Of a stretch of 26,545 bases of DNA, positions 4,787 through 23,895 are shown piece after piece; position 1 is the first letter of the stretch; every line of letters starts with the position of its first letter. Source of the stretch: a virus; the IMG/VR virus record IMGVR_UViG_3300042430_000262, positions 1-26,545 of that record. The stretch is one strand, 5' to 3'. The notes below the pieces were generated by a model. That model searched no databases, was not told where the DNA came from, and was given only the letters and a program-made list of their open reading frames with translations. The position numbers were made by a program, and so were the translations under genes.

Positions 4787-6820
4787 CTAGTAAAACTTAA
4801 TTTCACAAGCATCTGTAGAACAGTAGGCTTCACCTTCTGCTTCAAGATTTTCTACTCCATCATAAATAGCAGACCAATCAATCTTGCCAATCTTGCCTAC
4901 ATATGAGTTATATTCTTCTCTTGATATTTCTGTATATGGTTGCTGAGGATATGTTTTATTTCCCATTGGAAGAAATGAAACTGCCTTTAATTGACCTTCA
5001 TACATATTGAGGGCTGGGGCAACAAATTTCTTTTCTTCTTCCTTGTCAAATGAAAGTGTTACAGAAACACCATTGTCTGACCAGTATTTCTGAGCAGTTG
5101 CTGCCAAACCAATCTTTTCAAATAGGCTAACCTGCTTCTCTGCACGTTTGTGTCCAGATGCTACTGGAAAATAGACTACTGACGTGTTTGCTGATACTAG
5201 GTCTGCTTCAATTTTATATCCCGCTGCTTTAAACAAATGAAGCATTGGATCAGTGTTTCCAAAACGAATAGCACGAAGATAGAATTCTCCGCCAGGACCC
5301 CAGTGAACTCCAGGGGTAGCACCAGAAAGAAGTGATACAGATCCTGATGGCTTAACTGTTGTTACACGAACTGATTCACGAACGCAAAGCCATTCTGAAT
5401 ATGAATGATCATATTTACGAATTGTGTTGTATCCCTCATCCATCCACTCACGAGTTGTTGGTAGTCCGTAGGTATCTGCAAATGAAGCAATGCCAGTAAG
5501 AGATGTACCAATACGACGGTTTCTTTGCATAATACCGTTTGTTACCTGCCAATGTGTTGGCATCAAAGTAACAGTCTTTCCATAAAGATAAGCAAACTTC
5601 AATGTCTTGAGGAAGTCCTCCTTAGATTCATGACGATTTAGGTGCACTTCTACAAGTGTACAAAGTTCGTATGACTCTAATGGCTGCTCCGCACAAGGAT
5701 TGAAGCCCATAATGCGAGCATCTTTATAATCAGGTGCATCGGCAAGACGACCATAACTACGAGCAACATCTAGCCAGATAAAACCTGGCTCTCCGTTGTC
5801 TGCAATTAAATCTACATAGTCTTCATACTTTGTTCCAATTTCAGCAGAAATAGAATTATTACTCATCCATGCCCAACCTGGTTTTTTTGGATCGTATGAA
5901 TTTCTTTCTGGGAATACTTCTGGATTCTTAAGATTAATAAAACCTTCATCTTCTGGTGTGCCAAGTGCAAGGGTAGCAGAACGACGAACATTTCCAGAAA
6001 CAACACAGGTACCAATAAGATTAACAATGTCTACAATTGCACGGCTATCAAAGGTTTCTCCCGCTCTAGAGCCTATTACATTACGAATGCGTGTATGGAG
6101 ATCAATAAGTGGTGCTGGACCGCTAGCAACCCCTCCAAAGCCCTTAATAGGGGCACCTAGGGGACGGATGAGGTCATAGGTAAACTCTTGAATAGGTTGG
6201 TTTGCACGAAGGAATGAGTTAATAAGTAATCTAACAGACTCAACCCATCCCTCACGAGTATCTGGGATTTCATAAGTAGATGCTGGCTCTGTTGGCGCAT
6301 AAATAGACATTTGCTTGTCTTGTCCAAGGGTATCAAACCCTACACCAATACCCAACATTAATGCATCCATTACCCAAGCAAAAAGGGCACCTGGATCATT
6401 ACGATCAATATCACGAGTAGAGACCATTGCACAATTTTGAAGGGATGCTGAGTTACGCTTCTCCATAGTCATAGGAGTTCCAAATGCCCAGAGACCACGG
6501 CCTGGAGGAGTCCACTTTAATTCAAACATTCTTTGGAATGCTTCTTGTGCTGACTTCTGTGCCTTGTTATCATTCCAAGGTAGACGATTATCTTTAGCGT
6601 GATTTTTCTGAACTGAATACATGCCCTCGATTACACGACGGCAAACCTCATGCCAGCGTTCCTTTGTCCCGTCTTCTTTAACACGAGAATATGTACGAAT
6701 AAATGTTACCTCTCCCAACGAGTTAGATCCTGCATCTGAGAATCCAAATGGTGCTGGGATGGTTTGATATTTATTTACAAATTCTTCTGATAGACGAAAA
6801 GAGAATACGCTTTCTGACAT
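4787..6820 (-). CDS. nrdJ: Adenosylcobalamin-dependent (class II) ribonucleoside-triphosphate reductase, monomeric type
   Basis: This enzyme reduces ribonucleotides to deoxyribonucleotides using a B12 cofactor and supplies dNTPs for phage replication. At 677 aa it is somewhat shorter than the Lactobacillus enzyme (about 739). The catalytic set is intact. NPCAEQ supplies Asn374, the thiyl Cys376 and Glu378. Redox partners are Cys130 (LQNC) and Cys387 (ELCTL), with 11 residues between Cys376 and Cys387 as in the known enzyme. The C-terminal shuttle pair is Cys667 and Cys672 (CSTDAC). The motif VKPSGSVSLLSGATPG is also present. It has an extended -10 (6887-6879), a roughly 50-nt leader and an AAAGG Shine-Dalgarno. 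Its place between tail genes is unusual. No thioredoxin or glutaredoxin gene was seen. Confidence 0.95.
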   Translation of the reverse strand: MSESVFSFRLSEEFVNKYQTIPAPFGFSDAGSNSLGEVTFIRTYSRVKEDGTKERWHEVCRRVIEGMYSVQKNHAKDNRLPWNDNKAQKSAQEAFQRMFELKWTPPGRGLWAFGTPMTMEKRNSASLQNCAMVSTRDIDRNDPGALFAWVMDALMLGIGVGFDTLGQDKQMSIYAPTEPASTYEIPDTREGWVESVRLLINSFLRANQPIQEFTYDLIRPLGAPIKGFGGVASGPAPLIDLHTRIRNVIGSRAGETFDSRAIVDIVNLIGTCVVSGNVRRSATLALGTPEDEGFINLKNPEVFPERNSYDPKKPGWAWMSNNSISAEIGTKYEDYVDLIADNGEPGFIWLDVARSYGRLADAPDYKDARIMGFNPCAEQPLESYELCTLVEVHLNRHESKEDFLKTLKFAYLYGKTVTLMPTHWQVTNGIMQRNRRIGTSLTGIASFADTYGLPTTREWMDEGYNTIRKYDHSYSEWLCVRESVRVTTVKPSGSVSLLSGATPGVHWGPGGEFYLRAIRFGNTDPMLHLFKAAGYKIEADLVSANTSVVYFPVASGHKRAEKQVSLFEKIGLAATAQKYWSDNGVSVTLSFDKEEEKKFVAPALNMYEGQLKAVSFLPMGNKTYPQQPYTEISREEYNSYVGKIGKIDWSAIYDGVENLEAEGEAYCSTDACEIKFY

Positions 6821-9148: not shown

Positions 9149-9988
9149 CTAAAAATCTCTTCCCTTGACCTTCATTGAGTAGCCATCTCTCCAAAACTCC
9201 ATATTAGAATACTTATGCTTAATATAATCAGACAGAACATCTACTGAGGTTGATGGCATTGATAGGGAATTTCTTATGGTATGAAAGTTTTCAGGGTATC
9301 CCATTTTTATATCATTATCTACCTCTAATTTTACTATATTATTAAAATCATGATCATAATCGGGTAACTCTAAAAACTTATAAATACCAGACATTGTTTC
9401 TTTAGGGTTTAATACTAAATTAGTATATTCAACAATATGAAAATTTCCTTTATTGTTTGGATTTACAGCAGAGGCAACAGAAACCAGACCCCTATCTATA
9501 ACACTACCCCCCTGCATTAGATATTCGCATATACAATCTTCACTAGAGCGATACATGTTATTAAAAGCATTGTTGGCAATAACATCACTTTTTAAGAGGT
9601 CAGAGTTTAAGCCGATAAAGGAGGCAAGAATCTCTAAAATATCACGTACTGTAATTATTATCTTAGGCTCATTTGTAATATATTTTTTTATTAAATTAAG
9701 ATTTTCTGGCATTCCCCAGTCTTTTTGCCTATCAATTATTACAGGTTTTTCTATATCCTCATAAAAATTATTAGAAAAATAAGAAAGAAGTCTCTCTCCC
9801 CTATTCTTGTTATCTTGATTGCGCTGTACGCTATCTAGATATTCTAAAGATTTTGAGTGGTGCCACATTAAATCAGGAAGTGGACTTAGTGGACTAGTAT
9901 ATATATTTGGATTTTGATTCAATATTGCTGATAACAGGGTGTTGCCACTTCTTGGTAAACCCGCTAAAAAATGATATGTTTTGTTCAT
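9149..9988 (-). CDS. Sulfotransferase-family protein (279 aa)
   Basis: Predicted to transfer sulfate from PAPS to a hydroxyl or amine acceptor. The N-terminal PAPS 5'-phosphosulfate loop is clear (FLAGLPRSGNTLLS, residues 7-20). The 3'-phosphate-binding region is KIIITVRDILEILASF (109-124), with its Arg and a following Ser. The length fits the bacterial Sulfotransfer_3 group. The gene lies alone between two glycine-rich adhesin genes. Its own promoter puts TATACT 6 nt before the ATG, and there is no Shine-Dalgarno, so the mRNA is probably leaderless. The acceptor is unknown. Phage fibre residues, host surface glycan or a small molecule are all possible. Confidence 0.83.
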   Translation of the reverse strand: MNKTYHFLAGLPRSGNTLLSAILNQNPNIYTSPLSPLPDLMWHHSKSLEYLDSVQRNQDNKNRGERLLSYFSNNFYEDIEKPVIIDRQKDWGMPENLNLIKKYITNEPKIIITVRDILEILASFIGLNSDLLKSDVIANNAFNNMYRSSEDCICEYLMQGGSVIDRGLVSVASAVNPNNKGNFHIVEYTNLVLNPKETMSGIYKFLELPDYDHDFNNIVKLEVDNDIKMGYPENFHTIRNSLSMPSTSVDVLSDYIKHKYSNMEFWRDGYSMKVKGRDF

Positions 9989-11668: not shown

Positions 11669-13087
11669 TTAGATTGCGCCCATAAGGAGCAAGGTTAGTT
11701 CGTCTTTTACACTTCCTGGACCGTTGAGTACAATATCTGTTAGTCCAGATAGTGTTGTTACTGTTGCACCTGAAGCAATTGATGTTGAACCAATTGTAGG
11801 AGCAGAGTATCCTGCAAGCGTTGCCCAAGAAGTTGAAGTTCCATCTGTTGTAAGGTACTTACCTGAATTGCCAGACTGTGCTGCAACTAGATCAGTACCG
11901 TTATACTTTAGTGTTTTTCCTGAAGCAAGATTGATATGCTCTGATGAAGTCCAGGCATCTGTAGAGTCTACCCAGTTAAAGGTCTTATCTGTTGCACCCT
12001 TTAATGTTATACCGCCACCATCTGCAGTTGTATCTGTAGGTGATGCTACATCTGCAAGAACGATATTCTTGTCTTCTACTACAAGATTCGTTGAGTTAAT
12101 ATTTGTTGTTGTTCCGTTTACAGTTAAATTTCCAGAAAGAGTTAAATCTGTTCCTGATACCGCTCCAGTAAATGTTGCTCCTGAAAGCGCTGCTACATTT
12201 GCAACTAAAGCAACTGTTCCTGATGCATCTGGAAGAGTAATTGTACGATCTCCTGTTGGTTCTCCAGCCTCTAAAGTTGTTTCAAAATCATCTGCTGTTG
12301 CACCTTCAAATATGATGTTATGTGGTGCTGGGAGATATATACCGTGAATGGTTGGTGTTTGTCCAGTAGCAGTGATTGTAGGTCCATTTATTGTTGGTGT
12401 AGTTAATGTTTTGTTTGTAAGGGTTTCTGTTCCAGCAAGTGTTGCTACATCTGCATCGCTAACTGCTGCATTTAATTCAGCAAGAGTTGATGTAACTGTG
12501 TTTGTAGCAAGCGAAATTGATTTATTTGTTAAAGTTTCAGTCTTAGATGCAGTTGACTTAGCATCTAACTGAGTTTGAATTGCTGAAGTAACACCATTTA
12601 AGTATCCAATTTCAGTATCAGAAACATCTGCTACACGAGCCTGAATAGTTGTTGTGTCTACTGCCAAAGTTAGTGTGTTTGCACCATCGTTATAAGTCTT
12701 TGTTATACCTGTACCCGCAGTAAGAGCGGAATCAATAGCATCTTGTGAAAGTTCTGAAATATCAGATGTTAGGGCTACTGTGCCTGTTGCATCTGGAAAA
12801 GTAATTGTACGATCTGCTGTAGGATCTGTTATTGCAAGGGTAGTTTCAAAGTCGTTAGCAGTTGCACCCTCAAATGTAATGCTTGAGCCAAAAGCAGGGT
12901 TTACTGTTGAACTAGCGTCAATAAAGTAATCAAGGTTAATCCAGTGATTTGTGCCATCACCAATTTTAAATTTATTTGTATCAGTCTCGTATCCAATTTC
13001 ACCTGCGTTGAGGATTGGACCATTACCAGTGTTTGTTGAAATCCATTGAGCAGCAGTACCTCTGCGCTGTTGCATTCTTGTTGCCAT
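11669..13087 (-). CDS. Repetitive tail fibre / virion structural protein (472 aa)
   Basis: The N-terminus (MATRMQQRRGTAAQWIS, then LNAGEIGYETDTNKFKIGDG) is a familiar phage fibre start in which a short adaptor precedes a G-E-I-G-x-x-x-D-T repeat. The module FEGATANDFETTL...DRTITFPDATGTVAL appears twice, and TLTNKTLTTPTINGPTI marks a beta-helical or trimeric shaft. Then comes NLTVNGTTTNINSTNLVVED and ADGGGITLKGATDKTF, shared with the 611-aa protein at 13615. A perfect extended -10 and an AGAGGAG Shine-Dalgarno precede the ATG. The long antisense ORFs opposite it are by-products of the Thr/Ala/Val repeats. Confidence 0.78.
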   Translation of the reverse strand: MATRMQQRRGTAAQWISTNTGNGPILNAGEIGYETDTNKFKIGDGTNHWINLDYFIDASSTVNPAFGSSITFEGATANDFETTLAITDPTADRTITFPDATGTVALTSDISELSQDAIDSALTAGTGITKTYNDGANTLTLAVDTTTIQARVADVSDTEIGYLNGVTSAIQTQLDAKSTASKTETLTNKSISLATNTVTSTLAELNAAVSDADVATLAGTETLTNKTLTTPTINGPTITATGQTPTIHGIYLPAPHNIIFEGATADDFETTLEAGEPTGDRTITLPDASGTVALVANVAALSGATFTGAVSGTDLTLSGNLTVNGTTTNINSTNLVVEDKNIVLADVASPTDTTADGGGITLKGATDKTFNWVDSTDAWTSSEHINLASGKTLKYNGTDLVAAQSGNSGKYLTTDGTSTSWATLAGYSAPTIGSTSIASGATVTTLSGLTDIVLNGPGSVKDELTLLLMGAI

Positions 13088-17242: not shown

Positions 17243-17815
17243 ATGAGAAGAGACAAGATGGCTTGGATTGGAATCCTATCTTTAGTGGGACTACTTGCAC
17301 CCGTAAGTAATTCTGCTAATGCACTAACAACTACAACTGATAATAATTTACTAATTAATACGTCTAAGATTACCCCTGCCGACCCTAAGTCGGTTTTTTT
17401 GGTTTCTAAGCCAAAAAAAGTTTCAGTTTTGGCAAAGTATGAAAATGCTTCGTCTTTAACAGACTATGACCTAGTTCAACTATTGAAGGCTGTAGGCTTT
17501 ACTGGAAAAGGTCTTAAGACTGCTTGGGCTGTGGCCAAGGCAGAGTCAAACGGAAGACCTTTTGCATTTAATGGAAATGCTAAGACTGGTGACAGTTCTT
17601 ACGGGGTATTCCAAATAAATATGATTGGAATCTTAGGTCCTGATCGTAGAGAAAAATTTGACCTAAATGCTAACGCTGAGTTGTTTAACCCAGTAAAAAA
17701 TGCAACAATTGCATTCCACATGACCAAGGGTGGTACAGATTGGAAGTCTTGGAAATACGCTAAGACTGCTCCTGTACAAAAATGGTTAAAGAAATTTCCA
17801 CACAAGTACTTATAA
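17243..17815 (+). CDS. Exported lysozyme-like/SLT transglycosylase endolysin (190 aa)
   Basis: The only large plus-strand gene among the tail genes. MRRDKMAWIGILSLVGLLAP is a Sec-type signal peptide (basic start, hydrophobic core) with probable cleavage after ANA (residue 27). A linker follows. The lysozyme-like domain spans about 72-190, with VGFTGKGLKTAWAVAKAESN placing the likely catalytic Glu at 101, and SSYGVFQINM, the usual S-x-G-x-x-Q-I-N motif of SLT/goose-type lysozymes. It cleaves the peptidoglycan glycan strand. I chose the ATG at 17243, 8 nt after AGGAGG; a TTG at 17240 is less well spaced. The signal peptide implies export without relying only on a holin. A structural or entry role is the alternative. 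Confidence 0.85.
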   Translation: MRRDKMAWIGILSLVGLLAPVSNSANALTTTTDNNLLINTSKITPADPKSVFLVSKPKKVSVLAKYENASSLTDYDLVQLLKAVGFTGKGLKTAWAVAKAESNGRPFAFNGNAKTGDSSYGVFQINMIGILGPDRREKFDLNANAELFNPVKNATIAFHMTKGGTDWKSWKYAKTAPVQKWLKKFPHKYL

Positions 17816-17822
17816 TACTTAA

Positions 17823-17864
17823 AATAAAGAACCCCATTGGATTTCTCCTTTAGGGTTTTTTATT
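17823..17864. terminator. Bidirectional rho-independent terminator
   Basis: A 12-bp stem (AATAAAGAACCC / GGGTTTTTTATT, one G-U pair) with A-rich and T-rich flanks works in either direction. It separates the plus-strand lysin from the minus-strand operon ending at 17881. Confidence 0.85.
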
Positions 17865-17880
17865 TGCCTAAAACTAAATT

Positions 17881-18633
17881 TTATATTATCTTTTTTTGAT
17901 GGTCTTTATATTTTTCTCCAGACGTATGAACTCCCTTAAAATACCTTCTTCCTGACTGATGGGGCTTATCTACGTCTACGGTATTTCTCTCTACGCTCAG
18001 GTTCATAGACTCTAAAATTTCATTTTCATGAACTTCTATTGGAAAAAGGTCTTGAATAAACTTTAGGTCAAAACCTTCTACAAAGTTTCTAGGAATTGGT
18101 AAAAAGGCCCCCAAGGGGTCTCCTTTGCGAATACTAATTTTTAAATTTGGAACGGTAACTTTAAGATTAAAAGTAAAATCTCTTCTAATATTGTCTGTCT
18201 CAATAACACCTGTCATAGATACACATCCTGGAATAAACATATTTGGAGGCTGGATCGTCATTAGATTAATGCCTATGGGGGTCTTTAGGGCAAATCTATT
18301 CTGAATTGTAATAATACCACTGCCAAAACCAGTTTGAATAATTTGTTTATTACTATTGCTATTATCAATAAAAGTTATAATTGGATTACTTTCTGTACCG
18401 TCCCAGATTGCGTCAAAGTCAATTAATGACTTAATCATAAATCCGTATTGGTTACCAATTGTTAAAGGCAAACAATAGTAAAAATGAGAAGTAAACCAAT
18501 CTCTTTTTAGGTTTCCTTTTAATGGTTCAACTATTTCTTTGTAAAACCCATCATTGTCTAAAGCATGAGGAACAACAATAATTGTGTTCTCTGGCACCTC
18601 ATATGATGGATCGTTAAGGTGTGGGCCAGACAT
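17881..18633 (-). CDS. DUF6065 family protein (250 aa)
   Basis: The sequence fits the uncharacterised DUF6065 family. Family-typical blocks are HFYYCLPLTIGNQYGF, FGSGIITIQNRFALKTPIG with the following QPPN, TGVIETDNIRRDFTFNLK, and ISIRKGDPLGAFLPIPR. It has no membrane segment or signal peptide. Function is unknown; the all-beta look and conserved polar residues could fit a cupin-like or binding protein, which is speculation. I put the start at 18633 (MSGPHLND), preceded by AAAGG, overlapping the oxygenase gene by 20 nt. Longer starts at 18651 or 18669 are possible. As last gene of the hydroxylase/glycosyltransferase operon it probably shares their substrate or product. Confidence 0.78.
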   Translation of the reverse strand: MSGPHLNDPSYEVPENTIIVVPHALDNDGFYKEIVEPLKGNLKRDWFTSHFYYCLPLTIGNQYGFMIKSLIDFDAIWDGTESNPIITFIDNSNSNKQIIQTGFGSGIITIQNRFALKTPIGINLMTIQPPNMFIPGCVSMTGVIETDNIRRDFTFNLKVTVPNLKISIRKGDPLGAFLPIPRNFVEGFDLKFIQDLFPIEVHENEILESMNLSVERNTVDVDKPHQSGRRYFKGVHTSGEKYKDHQKKII

Positions 18634-19177
18634 GAGACCTTTCTTTTTCATATGTCCAGAAAGAGGCAATGGTATATCTCATGTCCCCTTCAATTTTTGT
18701 AACTCCGTGAAGATGCTCTGGATCTCCTGGATGCATTGCTAGTGTTCCTTGTTTTGGAACAATTTCAAAATTAAAATTTGGATAAAATGTGTGGCCTCCA
18801 GAGTAATTATTGTTTAAATATATAATAGTTCCAAAGACTCTGTGATCAAATCCGACAACATCTGTATTGCTCATATCATCTGCGTGAGGCCCTTGTTCCA
18901 TTCCTGGAAACCATCTAACAACTTGCAAGGTGTCTGAGTATATTTCTTTATCAAGACCATATTGTTTTTTAATTTGTTCTCCGCAACGAATGTTTGCATC
19001 AAGCATTATCAATGCAGACTTTTTATCGTAATTAATCATTTTATAATAATTAATTATTCGTCCATCCCAAAAATCACTTCCACCACTTTCCCACAGATTA
19101 GACTCTACAGCAACGCTAATCAAATAATCACAATCTTCTTTTGATAAAAAACTTTCTACAGTTTTTGCATTATTCAT
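18614..19177 (-). CDS. 2OG-Fe(II) oxygenase, prolyl 4-hydroxylase-like (187 aa)
   Basis: A non-haem iron dioxygenase that hydroxylates a substrate using 2-oxoglutarate and O2. The metal triad is visible: H98-A-D100 (QGPHADD) and distal His157 (EHLHGVTKI). Arg167 (MRYTIASFW), ten residues on, is the 2OG carboxylate ligand. FGTIIYLNNNYSGGHTFYPN before the distal His is the strand pattern of the P4H/EGL-9-like superfamily (L-N-x-x-Y-x-G-G-x-x-x-F). The length matches small viral and bacterial P4H domains. The gene overlaps the glycosyltransferase gene by 8 nt (ATGAATAA), indicating tight coupling. The substrate is not deducible from sequence. Prolyl hydroxylation is one option among protein, glycan or small-molecule targets. 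Confidence 0.87.
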   Translation of the reverse strand: MNNAKTVESFLSKEDCDYLISVAVESNLWESGGSDFWDGRIINYYKMINYDKKSALIMLDANIRCGEQIKKQYGLDKEIYSDTLQVVRWFPGMEQGPHADDMSNTDVVGFDHRVFGTIIYLNNNYSGGHTFYPNFNFEIVPKQGTLAMHPGDPEHLHGVTKIEGDMRYTIASFWTYEKERSHVWPTP

Positions 19178-20126
19178 CTCTACCCCTATCCATTAGTTCT
19201 TTTCTCCATTTACGCCAGCCATCGTATAACTCTCCTAAATTATGCCCAACGTGTTCGTAAAACTCTTTCATACTTCTTTCATAAAAAATATCACCATCTT
19301 GTATATCTTTACCTATTAGTATATCAATAATTCTGTCTGTTGTATAGTCTCTTTTAGGAAAATATTCTTCTGGAAAATCTTCGTGAAGTCTTGGCCTTCT
19401 TATTCTGTCTGAATATAAATGATAAATAGGTATATTTGACGGAACATACACATTCCATCCTGCAGTAAATGTTCTAAATCCGTTTAAAACTTCTTCTCCC
19501 CAAAATAAAACCCATTCTGGCTGGGGAATAGTTTTAAAGTATTCTGCAGGAGCAAAAATAAAATGCCCTGTCATATACCAATCACGAGCATACTCTTTTC
19601 CTTCTATAGGCTCCAAGATTGTTCCTCTTGGAGATAAGTCATAAGAATGAAGTAAATTTTCTTTTGTTGTATCTGTGTGCATTACAAAGGAAACTGGATA
19701 AGGTTGTTCTTTTTTTTCTTCTGTGCCATCTTCAAAGATATCAAAAACAGGCAAAGCCCCACTTAGTATTGGCTTTTTGTCATCTATTGACTCGATTAAT
19801 TTAATTAATCTTGTATCCCATCCTTGATCAAATCTAGAATGTGAGTCTATCTGAAGTATATAGTCATAAGTATCATCAAGCCATTTTAAACAACGATTTC
19901 TGCATGCTGTAACACTAAACATCTTACCAGCAAGTTCTAGGTCATATTGAACCTTTCCATCATAAGTTCTTTCTAGTTTTGATGACTCAATTTCGTGTTC
20001 TAGTGCATGAATAAAACATCCAACCATGATATTCTCTGGATAGTCTGCTTCACAAATTAATGAATCAATTGTGCCTTGTAAATATGGATCTCTATAAGAC
20101 GCTAAAGATACATATATTTTTTTCAT
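19170..20126 (-). CDS. Glycosyltransferase, Skp1 GlcNAc-transferase-like (PF11397 type), 318 aa
   Basis: GT-A-fold sugar transferase. The start MKKIYVSLASYRDP, the nucleotide-sugar/metal site LQIDSHSRF (Asp94-Ser-His96 in place of DxD), and the later FWGEEVLNGFRTFTAGWNVY and IYHLYSDRIRRPR are hallmarks of the family founded on the Dictyostelium Skp1 hydroxyproline GlcNAc-transferase. Bacterial and viral members are known by sequence. The usual G-P-x-x-A-R motif before the DSH is replaced by SVTACRNRC. No signal peptide is seen, so it acts in the cytoplasm. The ATG abuts the previous stop (TAAATG). Coupling with the adjacent P4H-like oxygenase suggests sequential hydroxylation and glycosylation. 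Donor sugar and acceptor are unknown. Confidence 0.85.
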   Translation of the reverse strand: MKKIYVSLASYRDPYLQGTIDSLICEADYPENIMVGCFIHALEHEIESSKLERTYDGKVQYDLELAGKMFSVTACRNRCLKWLDDTYDYILQIDSHSRFDQGWDTRLIKLIESIDDKKPILSGALPVFDIFEDGTEEKKEQPYPVSFVMHTDTTKENLLHSYDLSPRGTILEPIEGKEYARDWYMTGHFIFAPAEYFKTIPQPEWVLFWGEEVLNGFRTFTAGWNVYVPSNIPIYHLYSDRIRRPRLHEDFPEEYFPKRDYTTDRIIDILIGKDIQDGDIFYERSMKEFYEHVGHNLGELYDGWRKWRKELMDRGRDE

Positions 20127-20360
20127 TTACCATTTTCCTAAAGGGCACACTGCATCTTTAAGTTTTGTTTTTGCTGCCATAAAACACCCACATTTCTTAC
20201 ATTGAGATGTTAATTTTATTAATTCTGGACATGCTTTGCATAATTCAAATCTTGAATCAGAAATACTTGAATCTTCTAAATATTTATCAGGATTAACCAT
20301 ATCCCAAGGACGAGTATTTCCAATATTTTGTTTGTATTTTGACCAATTGCTATTAGACAT
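20127..20360 (-). CDS. Small Cys6 zinc-ribbon-like protein (77 aa)
   Basis: Cysteines at 41, 44, 54, 57, 59 and 72 (CKAC, then CKKCGCF, and VCPLGKW at the end) suggest a zinc ribbon. The N-terminal half carries RPWDMVNPDKY. A paralogue with identical cysteine spacing is encoded on the opposite strand at 25156-25353. Such 'CKKCGCFM...CPLxKW' proteins are common in phages of aquatic bacteria, but have no function known to me. I chose the ATG at 20360, overlapping the previous gene by 8 nt. A TTG five codons earlier is less likely. It is second in the modification operon. Confidence 0.75.
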   Translation of the reverse strand: MSNSNWSKYKQNIGNTRPWDMVNPDKYLEDSSISDSRFELCKACPELIKLTSQCKKCGCFMAAKTKLKDAVCPLGKW

Positions 20361-20529
20361 TGTAAGGTTGACCAATTACAAGAGAATCTGGACTATTTGT
20401 TATATCAACAAATATTGGATTACTTGTAAATAACGCCCAATTTCTTTCATCACACATAATTGTGTCTGCTACTTCTCCATCAACTACTACTGCAATTTTA
20501 TAATTTGTTACAACTTGATGTTCTGACAT
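20353..20529 (-). CDS. Small hypothetical protein, first gene of the modification operon (58 aa)
   Basis: The ORF runs from MSEHQVVTNYKIAVVVDGEV to VIGQPYNV and is below a 60-aa cutoff. It is supported by a perfect AGGAGG (20542-20537) 7 nt before the ATG, an extended -10 just upstream, and an 8-nt overlap with the next gene (ATGTCTAA). The pattern 'YKIAVVVDG.VAD', then 'ER..ALFTSNP.FVD', is a compact alpha/beta or beta protein of unknown role that I associate with phage tail regions. No cysteine pair or membrane segment is present. Confidence 0.72.
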   Translation of the reverse strand: MSEHQVVTNYKIAVVVDGEVADTIMCDERNWALFTSNPIFVDITNSPDSLVIGQPYNV

Positions 20530-20547: not shown

Positions 20548-20556
20548 ATTCTATCA
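20548..20556 (-). promoter_or_regulatory. Extended -10 promoter (TGATAGAAT) of the modification operon
   Basis: TGATAGAAT, a one-base variant of the recurring TGnTATAAT, lies just upstream of AGGAGG and about 18 nt before the ATG at 20529. With the terminator at 17864 it defines a five-gene transcript. Confidence 0.55.
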
Positions 20557-20563
20557 TATAGAA

Positions 20564-21421
20564 TTATGTTTGGCAACATGAGTAGTACCATGTTCCAGTT
20601 GTATATGCATACCAAGATACAGACCCACAAGAGCCATTGCTGACGGTTTGATTTCCTGGAGGGCTTACATATATGCTGCCTGTATTTACAGTTGTTCCTG
20701 TAATACAATTTCCATAATTTGAACCTAAATCTGGACCTCTAGTTGTATAAGTTGCACCCGCAGCAAAATAATTCCACATTGTAAGATTAACGCTTGATCC
20801 TGATGAAACTACAGTTCCTGATGCAGGAGATTGACTTTGAACCTTGCCCTCATTTGCAGGATCAGAAGTGTTTGATCCAGTTGCAAAACTTCCTGTTGAT
20901 AGGCCTGCTGCTGTGATTGCAGACTGTGCTTGAGAAGATGTTAAACCAACAACATTAGGGACAGTATAGGTAATTGGTGGTGGCGTAGTTGGTGGTGGCG
21001 TAGTTGGTGGTGGCGTAGTTGGTGGTGGCGTAGTTGGTGGAGGAGTAGCAGGTGGAGGAGTAGCAGGAGGAGGAGTAGCAGGAGGAGGAGGTGGTGGAGG
21101 TGGTGGAGGTGGGGCTGCAGGGCTAACACTTGTTGAAGCAGTTGAAATATCTGAGGACACCCCATAAGGAGTATTAGCAATTACCGTAAATGTATACGCT
21201 GTACCATTTGATAAAGAACTTACAGTAATTGGCGAAGTGGTACTAGTGCCAGTTATACTTCCAGGACTTGAGGTAGCAACGTATGTTGCCTCACCAGTCT
21301 TGCCTTCATATGTTGGCTGGGTAAAACTAACAGTCGCTGATGCATTTCCAGCACTTGCGCTTACTGAAGTTGGAGGATTTGGTTTTTTTCCACCAGAACT
21401 GTTATTCCCAATTACTGGCAT
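20564..21421 (-). CDS. Virion protein: fibronectin III, polyproline stalk, PASTA domain (285 aa)
   Basis: A four-part fusion. Residues about 14-101 are a fibronectin-III-like domain (PPTSVSASAGNASATVSF, GTAYTFTVIANTPYG). Residues 102-150 are nearly pure Pro/Thr (eleven consecutive Pro, then PPPATPPPTT-type repeats), a stiff stalk. Residues 151-216 are a PASTA domain (YTVPNVVGLTSSQAQSAITA, VQSQSPASGTVVSSGSSVNL); in bacterial kinases and PBPs this domain binds muropeptides or peptidoglycan. The last 70 residues are Tyr/Gly/Ser-rich with Cys239, 265, 282 and 283, perhaps disulfide-linked. The start at 21421 uses TAATG coupling; the reading from 21451 would overlap the previous gene. It probably contacts the Gram-positive cell wall. 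Confidence 0.8.
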   Translation of the reverse strand: MPVIGNNSSGGKKPNPPTSVSASAGNASATVSFTQPTYEGKTGEATYVATSSPGSITGTSTTSPITVSSLSNGTAYTFTVIANTPYGVSSDISTASTSVSPAAPPPPPPPPPPPATPPPATPPPATPPPTTPPPTTPPPTTPPPTTPPPITYTVPNVVGLTSSQAQSAITAAGLSTGSFATGSNTSDPANEGKVQSQSPASGTVVSSGSSVNLTMWNYFAAGATYTTRGPDLGSNYGNCITGTTVNTGSIYVSPPGNQTVSNGSCGSVSWYAYTTGTWYYSCCQT

Positions 21422-22190: not shown

Positions 22191-22769
22191 TTAGATAACT
22201 ACTGATATAAGAAGATGTACTGTAACCCCTCCTGTTAAGTTAGACCACGCACTACTTGTATATTTTGCTGCATTAAGATTAATTACTAGGTCTGTTCCTG
22301 CCCCTGCTAAGGCGGGGACTTCAATTGACGAAGCAATTGGTGCAGTATTCTCAATACTATATTGAACATTAAAGTTAGATGCTGTAAGTGGTGATCCAGA
22401 TACCGTGACTATGTTTGCAATTGGAATTAATATTGATGCTTCTCCAGAAGTAAATGTAACTGTATGTCTTTTAGAATAAAGAGTTGGAGAAATTTTTAAA
22501 ACTTGAACCCAAGTGTTTCCTCCAACTTCAGATATGTATTGGTAAAGATATCCATAATTGGTTCCTGGTGCAGAGTTAATATACATATCATAAAGATTAA
22601 TTGTTTCTGTAAAAATAGCACCGCTTGTAGTCAGAGAGTTTGGCTCTCCTGCTCCAACAAAAAACTTACTTCCTCTTTGTCCAGTTGGCCCGATATCTAC
22701 TAAAAGTTCTACAGTTTCTGGAGGTCCTAAAACTGTAATGTCATCATTAGATAATAGTACATCTGGCAT
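22191..22769 (-). CDS. Tail-associated structural protein (192 aa)
   Basis: MPDVLLSNDDITVLGPPETV and VDIGPTGQRGSKFFVGAG give a short collagen-like kink (G-P-T-G-Q-R-G), then N-L-Y-D-M-Y-I-N, GYLYQYISEVGGNTWVQVLK and a beta-rich C-terminus. The arrangement resembles actinophage tail proteins seen next to Ig-like fibre genes, from memory and without a search. It is coupled by TAATG to the upstream Ig-like gene. No enzymatic motif is present. Confidence 0.65.
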   Translation of the reverse strand: MPDVLLSNDDITVLGPPETVELLVDIGPTGQRGSKFFVGAGEPNSLTTSGAIFTETINLYDMYINSAPGTNYGYLYQYISEVGGNTWVQVLKISPTLYSKRHTVTFTSGEASILIPIANIVTVSGSPLTASNFNVQYSIENTAPIASSIEVPALAGAGTDLVINLNAAKYTSSAWSNLTGGVTVHLLISVVI

Positions 22770-23125
22770 TAAACGGCACCAGTAATATCATCTGTTACTG
22801 TAATTGTTCCAGTAAGTAGTGTAAAAATAACATCTGGGTTTGGTGTTGCATCTGTGATTTGAACATCATAGACATATGTTCCAGCAGCAAGTGTGCGGCC
22901 TACGGTTGGGGTAATCGTGCATGTAACAATATCGGTTGTTGTATTGACAACTGCGGAAGCCTGATACTGTGTTCCAGTTGAGCCACGCACATTTGCAATT
23001 GTAAAAGTTGCAGAATAATCTGTTAAATCAAAAGAAGATCCATCGTTTGCATTTTTGGGACGGGCTACAAACTGTGCCGTATCACCACGATAATAGTTAA
23101 AATTATAAATACTTGGAAATGCCAT
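22769..23125 (-). CDS. Small Ig-like tail domain protein, paralogue 2 of 3 (118 aa)
   Basis: YNFNYYRGDTAQFVARPKNA, FDLTDYSATFTIANV, an A-G-T-Y-V-Y-D-V-Q-I-T strand and FTLLTGTITVTDDITG match the three-part pattern of the genes at 16153 and 23983. The family resembles the N-terminal domain of BppU-type baseplate proteins. Its promoter (23151-23143) and AGGAGG Shine-Dalgarno are strong, and it is followed by the coupled 192-aa gene. Confidence 0.7.
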   Translation of the reverse strand: MAFPSIYNFNYYRGDTAQFVARPKNANDGSSFDLTDYSATFTIANVRGSTGTQYQASAVVNTTTDIVTCTITPTVGRTLAAGTYVYDVQITDATPNPDVIFTLLTGTITVTDDITGAV

Positions 23126-23151: not shown

Positions 23152-23895
23152 CTAAGAAACCGATATATACATGCCTTTTAGCATAATAGTGCTTTCATTA
23201 TCTGCTCTTGCTTGAATTATTCCACCCTCTGATTTTATCTTTGAAAGATCTACATATAAGGTTTGGTTAATAGACATTTCATATGAATACTTATATTTAA
23301 GCATTCCTATATATCCCGTTGGAGATTCTACTCTTGGAATATACGTTCTTATCCAGGCTTCTGTGCTATTAGTGTCGGTACTAAGTGCTATATCATATCT
23401 TATGTCTATTCTAGCCCCAACCTTAAGTTGCTTAAAGTTAATCCTTTGAGTAACTGAGTTCCAAAGCGATACTGAACCTTCTGGAAGAAATTTTAAGATG
23501 TTGGCATCTGCATCATCATCCATCAATATATCTACCCAACCATCATCGCCTCTATCAGGTCCAAGAAATAATGGTTTTTTATTTTTGTTTTGATAATATG
23601 CCCAACCTGGATATTGACCTGAAGGACTTTCGTAGCCTTCTCCTCCACCTCTGCCAGCCTCACCTCTAGGTCCTTGTGGCCCTTGTGGTCCATCTTTACC
23701 ATCTTTACCTGGAATGCCTCTTTCGCCCCTTGGCCCCTCTGGACCTTGTGGACCTGCTGGACCTACCTCACCTTTTTCTCCTTGAATTCCTGGAACGGCA
23801 ATGTATTCGGTATTATTGGCTTCTATGCTTTTTGTTGACTTAACTGCTTCAGAATACTTTGTTTTTGGACCATCCATATTTTTTGATATGGCCAT
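23152..23895 (-). CDS. Collagen-like virion protein (247 aa)
   Basis: Residues 36-83 are sixteen unbroken Gly-X-Y triplets ([19 protein letters not shown] and so on), rich in Pro at X and in Lys/Glu/Arg/Asp. This predicts a short collagen triple helix and hence a trimeric fibre. Only one triplet (GIP) has Pro at Y, the position hydroxylated in animal collagen. The segment [20 protein letters not shown] follows, and then a beta-rich C-terminal domain (about 110-247), a likely tip. The ATG has only a weak GAAG Shine-Dalgarno, lying inside the end of the 27-aa gene just upstream, so coupling to that gene is likely. Confidence 0.8.

Follow-up and report, generated by a model that had tools for sequence, protein, structure and literature searches.

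A predicted GT60 glycosyltransferase, prolyl hydroxylase-like oxygenase and DUF6065 operon beside a proline/threonine-rich stalk gene in a viral contig

Two activities have been tested for glycosyltransferases (GTs) of family GT60. The first is the addition of alpha-GlcNAc to hydroxyproline of Skp1, for which the enzyme Gnt1 requires prior hydroxylation (PMC6939170), and the second is the addition of alpha-GlcNAc to threonine of Trypanosoma cruzi mucins (PMC9472816), assayed with the acceptor KPPTTTTTTTTKPP (PMC3769586). Mycobacteriophage virion proteins are glycosylated by phage-encoded GTs (PMC12363180), and a viral precedent for a prolyl 4-hydroxylase (P4H) is the enzyme encoded by PBCV-1 (cited in PMC9301287). 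Phage-encoded modification of virion proteins is already known, as are mucin-type and hydroxyproline glycosylation by GT60 enzymes of eukaryotes. Here, a stretch of 26,545 bases from a virus (IMG/VR record IMGVR_UViG_3300042430_000262; hereafter the window) was analyzed. Five overlapping or abutting genes on its minus strand (20529-17881) encode a small open reading frame (ORF) of 58 amino acids (aa), DUF6171, a PF11397/GT60 enzyme, a 2-oxoglutarate (2OG) oxygenase and DUF6065 (Table 1). We consider the chances about even that this operon supplies the enzymes of a cassette for modifying fibre stalks, carried by a tailed phage from fresh water whose host is probably actinobacterial.

The locus resembles the Skp1 pathway of Dictyostelium and Toxoplasma, formed by PhyA and the GT60 enzyme Gnt1, in that a P4H-type oxygenase and a GT60 enzyme are encoded together and possibly act on proline. 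It differs in having no Skp1 target, a stalk with many repeated prolines and threonines, a DUF6065 partner and a GT that often occurs without an oxygenase; we know of no Skp1 in phages or bacteria. With TcOGNT of T. cruzi it shares the GT family, and the acceptor of that enzyme, consecutive threonines flanked by proline, is similar to the Thr-rich stalks of related phages and to the (A/T)TPPP tract of the window, whereas the phage system would be cytoplasmic, with no Golgi, and its activity is predicted only. Judged by sequence, the TTTTAAP-type phage stalks resemble the T. cruzi mucin acceptors, and the stalk of the window would offer both Thr and Pro sites. In the mycobacteriophages Che8, Corndog and Myrna a phage GT also acts on the phage's own structural proteins, and the host here is probably likewise one of the Actinomycetota; however, the targets there are the capsid and the tail tube, and the accessible part of the source describes neither a hydroxylase nor DUF6065. 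The P4H of PBCV-1 is similarly virus-encoded and is the best single-sequence PDB match of the window oxygenase, but PBCV-1 is an algal virus, and no GT60 or DUF6065 partner is described in the accessible part of its source. Additionally, EGLN3-like proteins in phages of marine bacteria were found in a broad structural survey (PMC12774648). In a literature search whose coverage left out most subscription journals, DUF6065 was not mentioned, and no phage GT60 or stalk-linked hydroxylase/GT cassette was described.

In the proposed mechanism, the gene upstream of the operon would make the stalk, a protein with an extended (A/T)TPPP tract, and the P4H-like oxygenase would hydroxylate prolines of this tract. 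The GT60 enzyme would add alpha-linked HexNAc to threonines of the tract, to the newly formed hydroxyprolines or to residues of both kinds. DUF6065 would work alongside the two enzymes and might bind either the proline tract or the residue once modified. The support is computed and consists of the enzyme families, the catalytic residues, the gene order, a predicted fold and the statistical agreement of stalk composition with the enzymes present; the substrate, the sugar, the reaction order, the role of DUF6065 and the host are what we infer. The two GT60 activities, together with the precedents for viral P4H and virion glycosylation, led us to regard the phage's own stalk as the likeliest object of modification. 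The B12-dependent ribonucleotide reductase encoded in the window (4787-6820, minus strand) shares 60-61% identity with its counterparts in Actinomycetia phage DSL-LC01 and Mycobacterium phage Gaia, which suggests an actinobacterial host. The alternatives below are given likelihoods that overlap, and no total of one is intended.

Table 1. Position and supporting evidence of the operon, its flanking signals and the candidate substrates within the window
Feature	Position	Strand	Evidence
DUF6065 protein	17881..18633	-	PF19541 3.7e-34
P4H-like 2OG-Fe(II) oxygenase	18614..19177	-	2OG-FeII_Oxy_3 (PF13640) 2.6e-7
PF11397 / CAZy GT60 glycosyltransferase	19170..20126	-	PF11397 2.3e-35
DUF6171, small Cys-rich protein	20127..20360	-	PF19668 1.7e-6
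58-aa ORF, first gene of the operon	20353..20529	-	good ribosome-binding site; small ORFs in similar place in relatives
Bidirectional intrinsic terminator (predicted), between convergent genes	17820..17864		fold z-scores
Stalk protein with PASTA domain (20780-20968), candidate substrate	20564..21421	-	PASTA 1.8e-14; start ATG 21421
Pro/Thr tract of the stalk, PPPPPPPPPPPATPPPATPPPATPPPTTPPPTTPPPTTPPPTTPPP	20975..21112	-	read directly; 22 Pro in 30 residues
Collagen-like fibre, 18 consecutive GXY triplets, less supported alternative substrate	23152..23895	-	PF01391 1.3e-7

The stalk gene lies directly 5' of the cassette; in the window, a mixed (A/T)TPPP tract accompanies GT60, 2OG and DUF6065 together. 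When a Pro-rich tract was defined as at least 12 Pro in 30 residues, 17 of the 18 2OG-DUF6065 loci that extended far enough upstream had one, as did all nine loci with GT60 and DUF6065 but no 2OG; among 48 loci with a lone GT60, mostly of large phages, it was seen in 3. The Pro/Thr tracts were restricted to the stalk gene, as none was present in the other long ORFs of the same loci (0/157 and 0/179). Among the targets suggested in the original prediction, the Pro/Thr stalk of the PASTA protein became the best-supported candidate, since the enzyme set tracks stalk composition; the collagen-like fibre was not supported as a main target, with collagen repeats in 5/18 loci against Pro stalks in 17/18.

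The match between enzymes and stalk was quantified in 48 distinct stalk-plus-cassette loci, anchored on DUF6171 over all loci and in many cases seeded by GT60 or DUF6065. A mucin-like, Thr-rich stalk accompanied GT60 without DUF6065 in 20 of 21 cases, and a Pro-rich stalk accompanied DUF6065 cassettes in 18 of 21. Furthermore, a cassette-neutral set of relatives was fetched by means of a neighbouring gene (22769-23125), and in its 63 loci with 5 kb downstream a Pro tract was present in 17/20 loci with 2OG and in 9/43 without it (p=3e-6; p=5e-4 for 41 de-duplicated loci). It was noticed afterwards that all five loci of this set with TTTTAAP-type stalks have GT60 and no 2OG. After this post-hoc observation the thresholds were fixed, and a fresh set was fetched with a divergent version of the neighbour gene. 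Here the Pro tract was again linked to 2OG (4/8 vs 1/36, p=0.0024), and the sole GT60 locus, a close relative of one already seen, had a stalk with 20 Thr, while none of the 43 others reached 15. Once the two neutral sets were pooled (107 loci), the Pro tract was found in 21/28 loci with 2OG vs 10/79 (p=2e-9), and the Thr tract in 6/7 loci with GT60 and no DUF6065 vs 1/100 (p=3e-8).

In related phages the enzymes present follow the make-up of the stalk, and these phages may therefore chemically modify fibres of their own. In addition, the occurrence of GT60 enzymes without 2OG or DUF6065 behind Thr-rich stalks points to glycosylation of threonine at least as much as of hydroxyproline. Mucin-like Thr stalks (up to 23 Thr in 30 residues) followed by DUF6171 and a PF11397-type enzyme were seen in loci L262, L283, L304, L432, L441 and their relatives, and in the first three of these a gene of the radical SAM-SPASM type precedes the PF11397-type enzyme. 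Separately, three phage loci (L263, L264 and L288) carry six to seven 2OG-oxygenase genes of the window type each, with stalks of the PPFFPPYF type.

Several observations weigh against modification of the phage's own stalk. On the tree of the neighbour gene, the independent pairs for 2OG and Pro were four in the predicted direction, one in the opposite direction and seven undecided, which is not significant. The GT60 tree consists essentially of one Thr-stalk clade and one Pro-stalk clade, the window being in the latter; therefore, as the loci are related, the match between stalk and enzyme could be inherited and not maintained. In locus L006 the GT60 is 89% identical to that of the window, and its contig has no Pro/Thr tract. 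Half of the 2OG loci of the fresh set lack a Pro stalk, and DUF6065 alone was not linked to Pro tracts in the neutral sets (p=0.13), a result to which matches of the model with distant DUF6065-like proteins may have contributed. Finally, many cassettes contain GT4, GT61, UDP-sugar dehydrogenase or carbamoyltransferase, as work on polysaccharides would predict.

The first of these points favors shared ancestry alone, according to which one phage lineage happens to carry both the stalk and the enzymes, and the enzymes act elsewhere. The tree-corrected stalk tests were mostly in the predicted direction, but the pairs were too few for significance. On the other hand, the stalks vary in length (171-997 aa) and in repeat (TTTTAAP, TTTTSGT, TTAAPG and others), yet they are Thr-rich throughout the GT60-only clade, and related phages without the enzymes have no tract in the same slot in 63 of 72 loci. 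We regard shared ancestry alone as doubtful, though with appreciable weight.

The polysaccharide-type enzymes bear on a second alternative, in which the products of the operon would alter the capsule, O-chain or wall glycan on the surface of the infected host, for instance as a barrier to superinfection. Related cassettes contain GT61, GT4-type GTs, carbamoyltransferase, UDP-sugar dehydrogenase and epimerase, in addition to cupin/JmjC-like and Asp/Arg-hydroxylase-like oxygenases and radical SAM-SPASM enzymes. Such a role has been proposed for the clusters of GT, 2OG and carbamoyltransferase genes of cyanophages and for the GT clusters of pelagimyophages (PMC7824862, PMC7029224); these capsular-polysaccharide or metabolite clusters overlap with the present cassette in enzyme classes, but differ from it in that no link to a stalk protein has been reported. 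Moreover, in two freshwater metagenome-assembled genomes (MAGs) the 2OG-DUF6065 pair lies beside a gene that, by eye, resembles a phosphoethanolamine transferase. Nevertheless, surface remodelling leaves unexplained both the match between enzyme set and stalk composition and the fact that the nearest solved oxygenases are protein hydroxylases, and the tested GT60 members act on polypeptides. We treat it as a serious rival, albeit an unlikely one.

To establish which genes of the cassette recur together, 80 viral loci seeded by DUF6065 and 83 GT60-positive viral loci, nearly all fetched by GT60, were surveyed. In the first survey 79 DUF6065 genes had a 2OG gene 5' of them, overlapping in 63 cases, within 50 nt in 4 and split by inserted genes in 12, so that DUF6065 closely follows 2OG in 67/79. 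The sequence divergence of the two was correlated (r 0.92; 0.88 without far paralogues), also when DUF6171 was taken into account (partial correlation 0.91; 0.87 without far paralogues), and lay far above the co-divergence of either gene with DUF6171. In the second survey, 2OG was present in 11/83 GT60 loci and adjacent on the same strand in 10/83, and DUF6065 was present in 18, directly preceded by GT60 in 13. Thus, of the recurring PF11397, P4H and DUF6065 cluster, the DUF6065 component was found again, but a GT60-2OG pair as a conserved unit was rejected, GT60 and 2OG being adjacent in only 10/83 loci. Given this low adjacency, and since DUF6065 is common to both kinds of cassette, the cassette is modular, and the GT60-2OG pair is one of its combinations. 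DUF6065 is its recurring partner, overlooked in the original prediction. The gene order of stalk, small ORF, DUF6171 and enzymes was found repeatedly in relatives.

These counts also bear on a strict Skp1-like pathway, in which the 2OG enzyme would make hydroxyproline in the stalk and GT60 would cap the same residue, with no glycosylation of threonine. The adjacency of both enzyme classes in the window, the dependence of Gnt1 on hydroxylated Skp1 and the Pro-rich stalks that precede GT60-DUF6065 cassettes are in keeping with it. However, an obligate pairing of P4H and GT60 was not found in the viral loci, as 72 of the 83 GT60 cassettes have no nearby 2OG, ten of them with a Pro stalk and DUF6065, and the GT60-only cassettes go with Thr-rich stalks. 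We judge the strict pathway quite unlikely. Of the hydroxylate-then-glycosylate pathway put forward originally, the two enzyme classes held up as genuine; a two-step order on one residue would still be conjecture, and GT60 occurs mostly without 2OG. More weight is given to glycosylation of Thr and hydroxylation of Pro proceeding, perhaps, in parallel.

The GT scored 123 bits against PF11397 (curated cut-off 21). Across 11 phage members, H96, E211, E212 and H236 are invariant and D94 nearly so, forming a DxH motif, an EE pair and a distal His, which we assume, by analogy with GT27, to be metal-binding and catalytic residues of a GT-A fold. No GT60 relative was found among solved structures by sequence search. 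With a PF11397 match of 2.3e-35 and the predicted catalytic residues intact, the glycosyltransferase assignment proved sound, and the enzyme is probably a mucin-type sugar transferase.

In the oxygenase, H98-x-D100 and H157, the HxD...H iron site, are invariant among relatives, and R167 is nearly so. A profile search of solved structures retrieved 3itq, 5hv0, 8k0e (P3H1), 2jig and 5c5t at 1e-5 or better, with PiuC and lysyl hydroxylases as weaker matches. With the single sequence, 5c5t was the closest PDB entry, and human P4HA2 was also among the prolyl hydroxylase relatives; we take 5c5t to be the P4H of PBCV-1, 3itq to be from Bacillus anthracis and 2jig from Chlamydomonas. The 2OG-binding Lys of collagen-type P4H is replaced by Arg (R167) in the window, and Arg at this position is found in PHD-, Tpa1- and P3H-type enzymes. 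By both searches the oxygenase is genuine and groups with protein prolyl and lysyl hydroxylases, not with nucleic-acid dioxygenases; it is probably a prolyl hydroxylase, as predicted from sequence. P4H-like relatives also occur in cyanophages. The PHROGs label 'DNA endonuclease (V)' (phrog_2297, phrog_274) for the oxygenase gene was taken as a misannotation, which looks to have spread into cyanophage records.

DUF6065 matched PF19541 above the curated cut-off, and ten positions (R56, Y64, C66, P68, G76, W89, G91, T130, N143 and Y243) are invariant over 41 phage and bacterial proteins. AlphaFold2 models were built from 18 sequences (pLDDT 78) and 41 sequences (pLDDT 86), and with both models the top 50 Foldseek matches in the PDB were trimeric dUTPases or dCTP deaminases. 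The best match of the 41-sequence model had E 1.3e-4 and prob 1.00; TM values were 0.5-0.65 by target and about 0.3 by query, the latter because the match spans no more than a portion of the protein. A BFVD search returned uncharacterized phage proteins and then dUTPases. In sequence, hhalign found nothing between DUF6065 and dUTPase (the dUTPase alignment being shallow), the five catalytic motifs of dUTPase are not preserved as judged by eye, and homology at the sequence level was rejected, Wsv112 of WSSV, presumably a dUTPase, matching only at E=1.2. Therefore, only a resemblance to the trimeric dUTPase (beta-clip type) fold is predicted, with no claim of dUTPase activity.

This fold bears on a further alternative, modification of nucleic acid or nucleotides in the style of base J, in which 2OG would hydroxylate a base, the GT would glucosylate it and the dUTPase-like DUF6065 would handle the nucleotide. 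The fold match and the ribonucleotide reductase gene within the window speak for it. However, the oxygenase profile retrieves protein hydroxylases, its sole JBP1/TET-type match being a weak single-sequence one (E 0.39), GT60 is a family of polypeptide transferases, the cassette is placed beside fibre genes, and DUF6065 lacks detectable dUTPase homology and, by eye, the catalytic motifs. Base modification is, in our estimation, very improbable.

Outside the phage loci, 24 of 398 genomes sampled from the phylum of genome G001 had a DUF6065 match above the Pfam cut-off, mostly as a lone gene, and bacterial neighbourhoods were set aside as a guide to its function for this reason. The two freshwater MAGs with the 2OG-DUF6065 pair are proteobacterial. 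In one bacterial genome DUF6065 comes directly after a polyproline-containing ORF, and in Sinorhizobium medicae an autotransporter gene precedes it at a distance of about 10 nt (these bacterial cases being L122 6886-9088, minus strand, and L090 5403-8684, plus strand). A tblastn search for DUF6065 in named phages found none. Distant DUF6065-like proteins of L258 and L261 have a PKGTPIAQVIP motif resembling dUTPase motif 4; their genes, which occupy the same slot in the genome, are accompanied by neither 2OG nor GT60.

The five-gene operon described originally was borne out, as the ORFs and overlaps match and the clustering was found again in many related contigs; the 8-nt overlap of the GT and 2OG genes was reproduced from the ORF coordinates. 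From alignment with relatives, the likely start of DUF6171 is ATG 20360, and that of DUF6065, whose frame is open from TTG 18669, is ATG 18633, giving a 20-nt overlap with 2OG. DUF6171 homologues sit 5' of the cassette in most related loci. The 58-aa ORF had no match in a Pfam search, and an NCBIfam search gave no match. A strong hairpin lies between the convergent DUF6065 and lysozyme-like genes (17810-17885; folding z = -3.1 on the minus strand and -3.9 on the plus strand), so that the terminator placed earlier at 17823-17864 is real and, by its predicted fold, able to terminate both ways. In contrast, the promoter proposed at 20548 did not stand, as 21 promoter-like sites in the region are at chance level (18.4 +/- 4.2 in shuffles), and the site directly abuts the ribosome-binding site. 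Elsewhere in the window, a sulfotransferase (9149-9988, minus strand; PF00685 7e-14), with cyanophage relatives annotated as sulfotransferase, lies in the tail-fibre region and might be another enzyme that modifies the surface or the fibres, and a protein of the receptor-binding type (11669-13087, minus strand) has an Mtd N-terminal domain (5e-12).

Taking the related cassettes together, we tentatively envisage, at somewhat less than an even chance, a family of aquatic phages with mucin-like and hydroxyproline-type glycosylated stalks. GT60 would start on Thr-rich stalks, 2OG-DUF6065 would handle Pro-rich ones and mixed stalks would combine both, with repeats and enzymes co-evolving and DUF6065 being a dUTPase fold turned into a partner that binds the peptide or its modification. 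Since stalk repeat and enzyme set correspond, peptides and mass spectrometry would allow a direct test of the question. If phages do apply GT60 chemistry to their own fibres, the GT60 family would extend to phages, where its peptide substrate would be evident, and DUF6065, a domain of unknown function, would gain a fold and a context. A testable structural role would then also fall to the many P4H-like oxygenases and GTs that aquatic viruses encode and that are commonly catalogued as auxiliary metabolic genes.

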